This document shows, piece after piece, positions 21,475 to 21,539 of a stretch of 64,000 bases of DNA. Source of the DNA: Peptoniphilus grossensis ph5 (lineage in GTDB: Bacteria > Bacillota > Clostridia > Tissierellales > Peptoniphilaceae); assembly GCF_000311825.1 (NCBI RefSeq), contig NZ_HE978567.1, forward strand, positions 226,553 through 290,552, written 5' to 3'. The notes below the pieces were generated by a model. That model was not told the DNA's origin. It made no database searches and saw nothing but the letters and a program-made list of their open reading frames with translations. Positions within the stretch are counted from its first letter, which is position 1, and each line of letters opens with the position of its first letter. The position numbers and the translations under genes are program-made.

Positions 21475-21499
21475 AAAAAAAGACAGAATTATTCTGTCT
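21475..21499 (-). terminator. Terminator whose stem is built from the TCTG repeat
   Basis: AGACAGAAT (21481-21489) pairs perfectly with ATTCTGTCT (21491-21499). Seven T residues follow on the minus strand. It lies downstream of the PH-domain gene and upstream of the SLH gene. Its upstream arm runs without a break into the tetranucleotide repeat. Confidence 0.7.
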
Positions 21500-21539
21500 G
21501 TCTGTCTGTCTGTCTGTCTGTCTGTCTGTCTGTCTGTCT
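21493..21539. repeat. Perfect TCTG tetranucleotide tract, 11.75 copies
   Basis: Forty-seven bases of uninterrupted TCTG (CAGA on the other strand) lie in the leader of the SLH surface-protein gene, about 165 bases before its start codon. Tracts of this type and length change copy number by slippage and are typical phase-variation switches. This one is outside the coding region, so it would act on transcription or leader RNA rather than reading frame. Confidence 0.9.

Follow-up and report, generated by a model that had tools for sequence, protein, structure and literature searches.

An AGAC repeat tract in the leader of an SLH surface protein gene of Peptoniphilus grossensis: a candidate phase-variable, translation-coupled transcription attenuator

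Introduction

Can a change in the copy number of a tetranucleotide tract switch a surface adhesin on and off and, if so, by which route? The question is raised by a locus in the window, i.e. the whole stretch of 64,000 nucleotides of Peptoniphilus grossensis ph5 that was analysed, where a perfect AGAC repeat lies in the leader of a gene for an SLH-anchored surface protein. From the anatomy of this locus, its frame arithmetic and the start- and stop-codon patterns observed in its relatives, we consider it to be a phase-variable, translation-coupled transcription attenuator, with a probability of about 0.7.

Results

Tract, hairpins and neighbouring genes

17646..21329, minus strand: gene for an SLH-anchored surface protein of 1227 aa (SLH 6.9e-30, Chlam_PMP 1.3e-29)
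21336..21340, minus strand: GGAGG ribosome-binding site of the SLH gene (from the sequence)
21421..21460, minus strand: T2, a stronger terminator-like hairpin (predicted, -15.7 kcal/mol), followed by CTTTTTT
21481..21499, minus strand: T1, a weak terminator-like hairpin (-7.8 kcal/mol) with the tract end as its 5′ arm, followed by a T-run
21493..21539, minus strand: AGAC tract, (AGAC)11+AGA (from the sequence and Tandem Repeats Finder)

The tract consists of 47 bases, running from 21539 to 21493, and reads TCTG on the plus strand. Tandem Repeats Finder gave a period of 4, 11.8 copies and a match of 100 % for 21493-21539, confirming the original prediction of a perfect 47-base TCTG tract in the leader of the SLH gene. 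That prediction, the span of which (21475-21539) takes in the tract, the T1 hairpin and the T-run, was also correct in holding that the last tract units form one arm of a terminator, as they do in T1. The T2 hairpin and a short ORF running through the tract were both absent from it. No other perfect AGAC run of at least five units was found in the 2.10 Mb genome, seven pattern matches being overlapping reads of this one tract. The arrangement of tract and hairpin is real and in all likelihood functional. Since any AGAC unit can act as the T1 arm, folding of T1 should be independent of copy number. T2, a predicted intrinsic terminator, is located between the leader ORF and the SLH gene, and its loop contains a TGA codon (21441-21439). 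A search for known RNA elements at 17000-24000, judged by e-value, yielded four matches, every one of them under its gathering score.

The surface protein showed a signal-peptide-like N-terminus (by eye), Chlam_PMP repeats and three SLH stretches. Its gene has its own ribosome-binding site and ATG (21329), about 163 nt behind the tract. The possibility that the SLH gene is itself a translational contingency locus was rejected, as the tract is not part of the SLH reading frame and the gene is started separately. The upstream bPH_2 gene is read in the same direction and is followed by its own terminator-like hairpin (21714-21677). This gene contains 2.2 perfect, in-frame copies of a 30-bp unit (22160-22226; REFSFMNGFF occurs twice); the orthologue in the congener G001 (L009) carries a single copy, and the repeat looks like a fresh in-frame duplication. 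Two congeners (L009:1501-1695 and L010:1501-1693) showed 86-87 % identity to window positions 21566-21760, keeping the end of the bPH_2 gene and the TTGACA in front of the tract. Past this TTGACA, the stretch read in G001 and G009 was unrelated and contained no AGAC tract, so that the tract itself offered no comparison. As judged from these sequences, the adhesin occupies a variable site, because the congeners keep the bPH_2 end and TTGACA and then continue with unrelated, tract-less sequence.

Leader ORF, frame arithmetic and embedded promoter

21489..21563, minus strand: leader ORF at the present 11 units, 24 codons, GTG 21563-21561 to TAA 21491-21489 in the T1 loop
21574..21582, minus strand: GAGAGAGAG, a run rich in purines that resembles a Shine-Dalgarno sequence for the leader ORF and is weak in the window (from the sequence)
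21401..21403, minus strand: TAA past T2, the stop predicted for the leader ORF with 10 or 13 units (from frame arithmetic)
21544..21573, minus strand: P, a putative promoter, TTGACA-18-TACAAT (11/12 matches), with its predicted transcription start in the tract; its geometry is common to relatives

The frame of GTG 21563 is open into the tract. By frame arithmetic, the stop codon of the leader ORF depends on the number of units: with 11 it is the TAA in the T1 loop, with 12 it would be the TGA in the T2 loop, and with 13 or 10 it would be the TAA beyond T2. The -35 hexamer of P lies at 21573-21568 and its -10 hexamer extends to 21544, ending 4 nt before the tract. As the predicted start point of P is the first AGAC unit, downstream of the leader start codon, P cannot make an mRNA that contains the leader ORF. 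The best promoter found in the window upstream of this ORF scored just 8/12.

Relatives of the locus

Related tracts were collected by BLAST with 60 bases of AGAC and by patterns. Among 130 genomes from the family, BLAST identified 14 that carried tracts; a search of 249 genomes of the order returned the identical 14, and among 391 genomes drawn evenly from the class 18 carried tracts, three of them belonging to the family. Of the 249 genomes of the order, 13 contained the pattern TTGACA-N26-28-(AGAC)3A, and none contained the reversed pattern that served as control. The AGTC control repeat (0/245 genomes) was uninformative. TTGACA-N26-28-(AGAC)4 matched at least 119 stretches in a collection of 84,980 species and 52 stretches in IMG/VR; the 80 matches listed were mostly from Clostridia, with some from Erysipelotrichia and lactic bacteria and few others. 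The sets other than IMG/VR yielded 146 distinct tracts with sufficient upstream sequence, L114 and L139, which have N inside the tract, each being counted as two. No long upstream frame was found for 106 of these (leader-type), 8 were ambiguous and 32 lay in long coding frames, mostly hsdS. The TTGACA-containing pattern fetched many of the loci, and the frequency of TTGACA was measured only on tracts found by BLAST (29 readable). None of the selections made use of the -10, the start codon or the stop codon. A mobile cassette common to the loci was rejected as an explanation, since most relatives have their signals and spacing in common but not their sequence.

One leader locus, represented by L232, L244 and L251, had 16, 20 and 14 units, respectively, with flanks that were 95-98 % identical when compared across 150-176 nt before the tract and about 400 nt behind it. 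Variation in tract length at such leader loci is thus real, as seen at loci other than that of the window. On one Lachnospiraceae contig, two neighbouring genes each began with an AGAC tract of their own, of 12-13 units (L117:1877-1925 and 7628-7676), and their upstream regions were 91 % identical. Many metagenome contigs ended inside AGAC tracts, and the chromosome of Mogibacterium pumilum contained a run of N inside the tract of an hsdS gene (L114:1142-1310). The number of AGAC-tract loci is probably under-counted because assemblies break at such tracts.

In the hsdS genes of Firmicutes (L098, L099, L130, L159, L175, L181 and others), the tract lies between the two specificity parts, following the residues LLTF and preceding the second part, and most of the genes that could be read past the tract were out of frame in the sequenced genome. 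On viral contigs from IMG/VR (L207, L225, L229, L253 and L220), tracts were found in genes for PAPS reductase, C-5 cytosine methylase and reverse transcriptase. These are probably phase-variable phage genes, because in many of them the longest frame ahead of the tract was out of register with the longest one behind it.

Start codons in front of the tract

Leader-type loci with an exact TTGACA numbered 84, the window included, and were compared with 44 control promoters from the same DNA. An ATG or GTG was present between TTGACA and the tract in 77 of the 84, and the first of these was open into the tract in 76 loci and stopped in 1; a start codon was found at 28 of the control promoters, 15 open and 13 stopped. 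An open start together with a Shine-Dalgarno match of at least 4/6 was observed in 68/84 leaders versus 6/44 controls, and the 10 nt 5′ of TTGACA were 80 % purine in the leaders versus 52 % at the controls. The position of the start codon relative to TTGACA varied among leaders from 0 to 18 nt, and once was 25 nt. From our own reading of the locus list, the Shine-Dalgarno stretch shifted along with it in several loci, which is expected of translation and not of a promoter motif. Promoters scoring at least 10/12 were found farther upstream in 28 of 82 loci, compared with about 3.4 in shuffled sequences. As far as such patterns can tell, the tract very probably belongs to a translated ORF, because the relatives have both open starts with Shine-Dalgarno stretches and promoters upstream of them.

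Stop codons and hairpins behind the tract

Sufficient downstream sequence was available for 77 of the 114 leader-type and ambiguous loci. Forty-nine of them had a T2-like hairpin, called with a simple scorer of our own, and lacked any frame as long as 500 nt; 15 were fusions, in which one frame extended for at least 500 nt (e.g. Acyl_transf_3 in L066 and L119, and hsdS in a few), and 13 were neither. In 45 of the 49 leaders with T2, one frame met a stop codon no more than 5 nt from the tract, compared with a mean of 17.1 in shuffles, none of 500 of which reached 45; such a stop was also present in 8 of the 15 fusions and 8 of the 13 other loci. A frame reached the end of the T2 5′ arm in 35/49 (29.1 in shuffles, 14 of 500 reaching 35), an excess too modest to be more than suggestive. 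Only 24 of the 49 had a T1-like 3′ arm with complementarity to the tract, and none of the 15 fusions did. The present frame of the 49 leaders was early in 19, middle in 16 and late in 10, with 4 that were undetermined.

The genes behind these leaders were heterogeneous. A simple rule identified a downstream ORF in 57 of the 62 non-fusion loci, and 41 of the 57 started like a signal peptide (by eye). No family was shared: the ORFs matched 51 Pfam families, none with more than five members. Of the 25 families listed, BspA-type LRR, List_Bact repeats, pilin and beta-helix are characteristic of surface proteins; GGDEF, glycosyltransferase, helicase, BrxA and PAPS reductase were among them as well.

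These results bear on the possibility that T1 and T2 are ordinary terminators, either of the bPH_2 transcript or of a small RNA made from P, with the tract as a neutral microsatellite. The bPH_2 gene does lie upstream in the same direction, and P followed by T1 and T2 could yield a small RNA. The bPH_2 gene, however, has a terminator-like hairpin of its own, the order promoter, tract, hairpins and gene recurs at unrelated loci, and the stop-codon pattern of the relatives is not neutral. We regard this explanation as improbable.

A promoter kept at the tract

Twenty-nine tracts had been found regardless of their upstream sequence. TTGACA was located 23-29 nt before the tract in 23 of them exactly and in 25 with at most one mismatch, where shuffling predicted 0.06 exact occurrences. 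Behind TTGACA, at 16-18 nt, 83 of 84 leaders carried a hexamer whose second base is A and whose sixth is T, against an expectation of 22.4. So did 27 of 28 coding tracts (6.5 expected) and 46 of 49 viral tracts (11.3 expected); the remaining viral tracts lacked TTGACA at this place. The -10 of the viral loci was poorer, with a mean of 3.57 of 6 matches compared with 2.66 in shuffles. On the opposite strand of the tracts TTGACA was seen once. An exact TTGACA at 23-29 nt was missing in 22 of the 106 leader-type and 4 of the 32 coding-type tracts. Tracts from Synergistales (L083), Paraburkholderia (L100) and a betaproteobacterium (L087) had no exact TTGACA, L087 having TTGACT.

This constancy is relevant to a promoter-spacing switch, in which tract length would alter how far apart promoter elements or regulator sites lie. 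Its appeal lies in proximity alone, together with a CAGACA/AATAAT pair (9/12) that can be read across the tract end. Every register of the tract, however, provides the identical CAGACA as -35, and an exact TTGACA lay 23-29 nt from the tract in 23 of the 29 unselected tracts, whatever their length. Both hexamers of P lie outside the tract, so that a change in copy number does not move promoter spacing as had originally been proposed. Contradicted in this way by the geometry, such a switch is very improbable.

The TTGACA within hsdS might have been a protein motif, i.e. part of LLTF. This was rejected: the conserved Leu-Thr was encoded by TTG-ACA in 13 of 17 tract copies versus 1 of 12 tract-less copies that have Thr at this position (Fisher p 4.8e-4), the 17 being derived from BLAST or having a tract able to match the pattern alone. 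In L035, L114, L141 and L152, TTGACA was read in another codon phase. The geometry of P was found in adhesin leaders, in acyltransferase genes, in hsdS and in phage genes for methylase and PAPS reductase. Its sequence is maintained as DNA across several gene contexts, inside hsdS and phage genes too, in the AGAC orientation and with the predicted start point in the first unit, as indicated by the codon choice in hsdS and the other codon phases elsewhere. With GCAGA as a control repeat, three distinct perfect tracts were obtained (from 2/245 and 4/220 genomes, one genome being common to both sets), and all three had a P-like promoter, scoring 10, 9 and 8/12. Two further GCAGA matches with 77-79 % identity (L258 and L259) were dropped, as they contained no run of three perfect units.

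A conserved promoter inside phase-variable repeats is the part of these results that a specialist would not expect. That it is kept at most tracts suggests that a transcription start in the repeat is part of switching. P might be a dedicated promoter that starts transcription in the repeat and makes the phase-variable repeats of Firmicutes unstable, serving mutation and not expression; we advance this tentatively and think it less probable than its falsity. The instability might arise through an open complex, an R-loop or blocked replication. In E. coli, transcription into triplet repeats alters their stability, according to the parts of a review available to us (PMC7015867, citing Bowater 1997 and Krasilnikova 1998). 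The score of P did not correlate with tract length among 147 complete tracts (rho -0.006, p 0.94), which counts against the simplest form of the mutator reading. Alternatively, such tracts might originate at P, or P might give rise to a small RNA or act as a secondary promoter. If P truly drives instability, it would act in cis as a dedicated mutator, and the long-standing question of how contingency loci determine the rate at which they switch could be tested directly.

Discussion

A model of the switch

From the anatomy described above we infer that slippage, translation of the leader, termination at T2 and an effect on the adhesin are the components of the switch. The leader ORF of an mRNA begun upstream would be short and run into the AGAC tract, and slippage would alter the tract by four bases and hence the frame behind it. 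With the present 11 units, ribosomes would leave at the TAA in the T1 loop, T1 and T2 would fold, and transcription would end before the SLH gene. With 12 units ribosomes would get to the T2 loop, and with 13 (or 10) they would pass T2 and prevent it from folding, so that the adhesin would be transcribed. In pil1 of Streptococcus gallolyticus, where an attenuation mechanism based on leader repeats is supported by mutants and expression data, a leader peptide that ends at, in or beyond the terminator raises transcription and one that ends well before it does not (PMC3894217, as far as available to us). By the pil1 rule, the window would now be OFF or low, and two of the three frames would be ON. 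The proposal that copy number switches the adhesin is therefore upheld in part: the anatomy and the analogy with an experimentally tested system support switching, but the route would be the frame of the leader ORF and not spacing. By the frame arithmetic, copy number would change this frame and with it whether ribosomes reach T2.

Within the window, the GTG start, the weak Shine-Dalgarno stretch and the low score of the best upstream promoter compared with P speak against the attenuator. Among the relatives, the modest T2-reach excess, the early stops outside the T2 group and a T1-like arm at no more than 24 of the 49 T2 leaders weigh on the same side. As for the window, P might be its main promoter, and the mRNA would then lack the leader ORF. 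Taken to its end, this would make P the sole promoter and the tract the untranslated 5′ end of the mRNA, with copy number tuning leader structure, RNA stability or initial transcription. The scores in the window agree with such an arrangement, as no upstream promoter exceeds 8/12 and P has 11/12, and so does the P-like promoter at most tracts. But T1 can fold from any unit, so length should hardly matter; the over-represented start codon and Shine-Dalgarno stretch before the tract and the stop behind it would be pointless; and P also occurs inside hsdS and phage coding sequence. We therefore judge P as sole promoter to be rather unlikely, though less so than ordinary terminators, and prefer the translation-coupled attenuator.

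Comparison with known systems

Among the literature matches listed, the Pil1 paper alone describes a mechanism of this kind in its title or the start of its abstract, subscription journals lying mostly outside the coverage. The titles and abstract starts of these matches contain no mention of an embedded promoter at such tracts, which, with few subscription journals covered, is weak evidence of novelty.

The attenuator is, by analogy, the Pil1 mechanism with another unit, host and gene. As in Pil1 and Pil3 of S. gallolyticus, insofar as the available part of that paper describes them (PMC3894217), a short repeat whose unit is not a multiple of three lies in a leader ORF, and as in Pil1, the frame sets the position of the stop relative to a premature terminator upstream of a surface adhesin. 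Unlike Pil1 (PMC3894217), the unit is AGAC instead of GCAGA, there are two hairpins, the first of them made from the tract itself, the adhesin is an SLH-anchored, PMP-like protein instead of a pilus operon, and the host belongs to the Helcococcus family. In the window, moreover, a consensus promoter is embedded between the Shine-Dalgarno stretch and the tract.

Frame switching by tract slippage is likewise shared with modS of S. suis, described in the accessible part of its source as a translational contingency locus (PMC8125046). The hsdS and acyltransferase tracts of the relatives look like this translational type. The tetranucleotide loci of Haemophilus influenzae are also translational contingency loci, with short-repeat tracts within the gene. 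In contrast to such loci, the ORF that is switched here would encode only a leader peptide, the start and ribosome-binding site of the SLH gene being separate from it. In loci of the uspA2 type of Moraxella catarrhalis, a tetranucleotide tract lies in the 5′ UTR between the promoter and an adhesin gene. The present locus resembles this type in the placing of its tract but differs from it in that a conserved ORF through the tract, together with terminators, allows an account based on frame. To our knowledge, an attenuator switch of the Pil1 type has been known only from streptococcal pili. The loci described here suggest that it is common among anaerobic Firmicutes of the gut and mucosa, and the ON/OFF state of many surface-protein genes could then be guessed from tract length alone.
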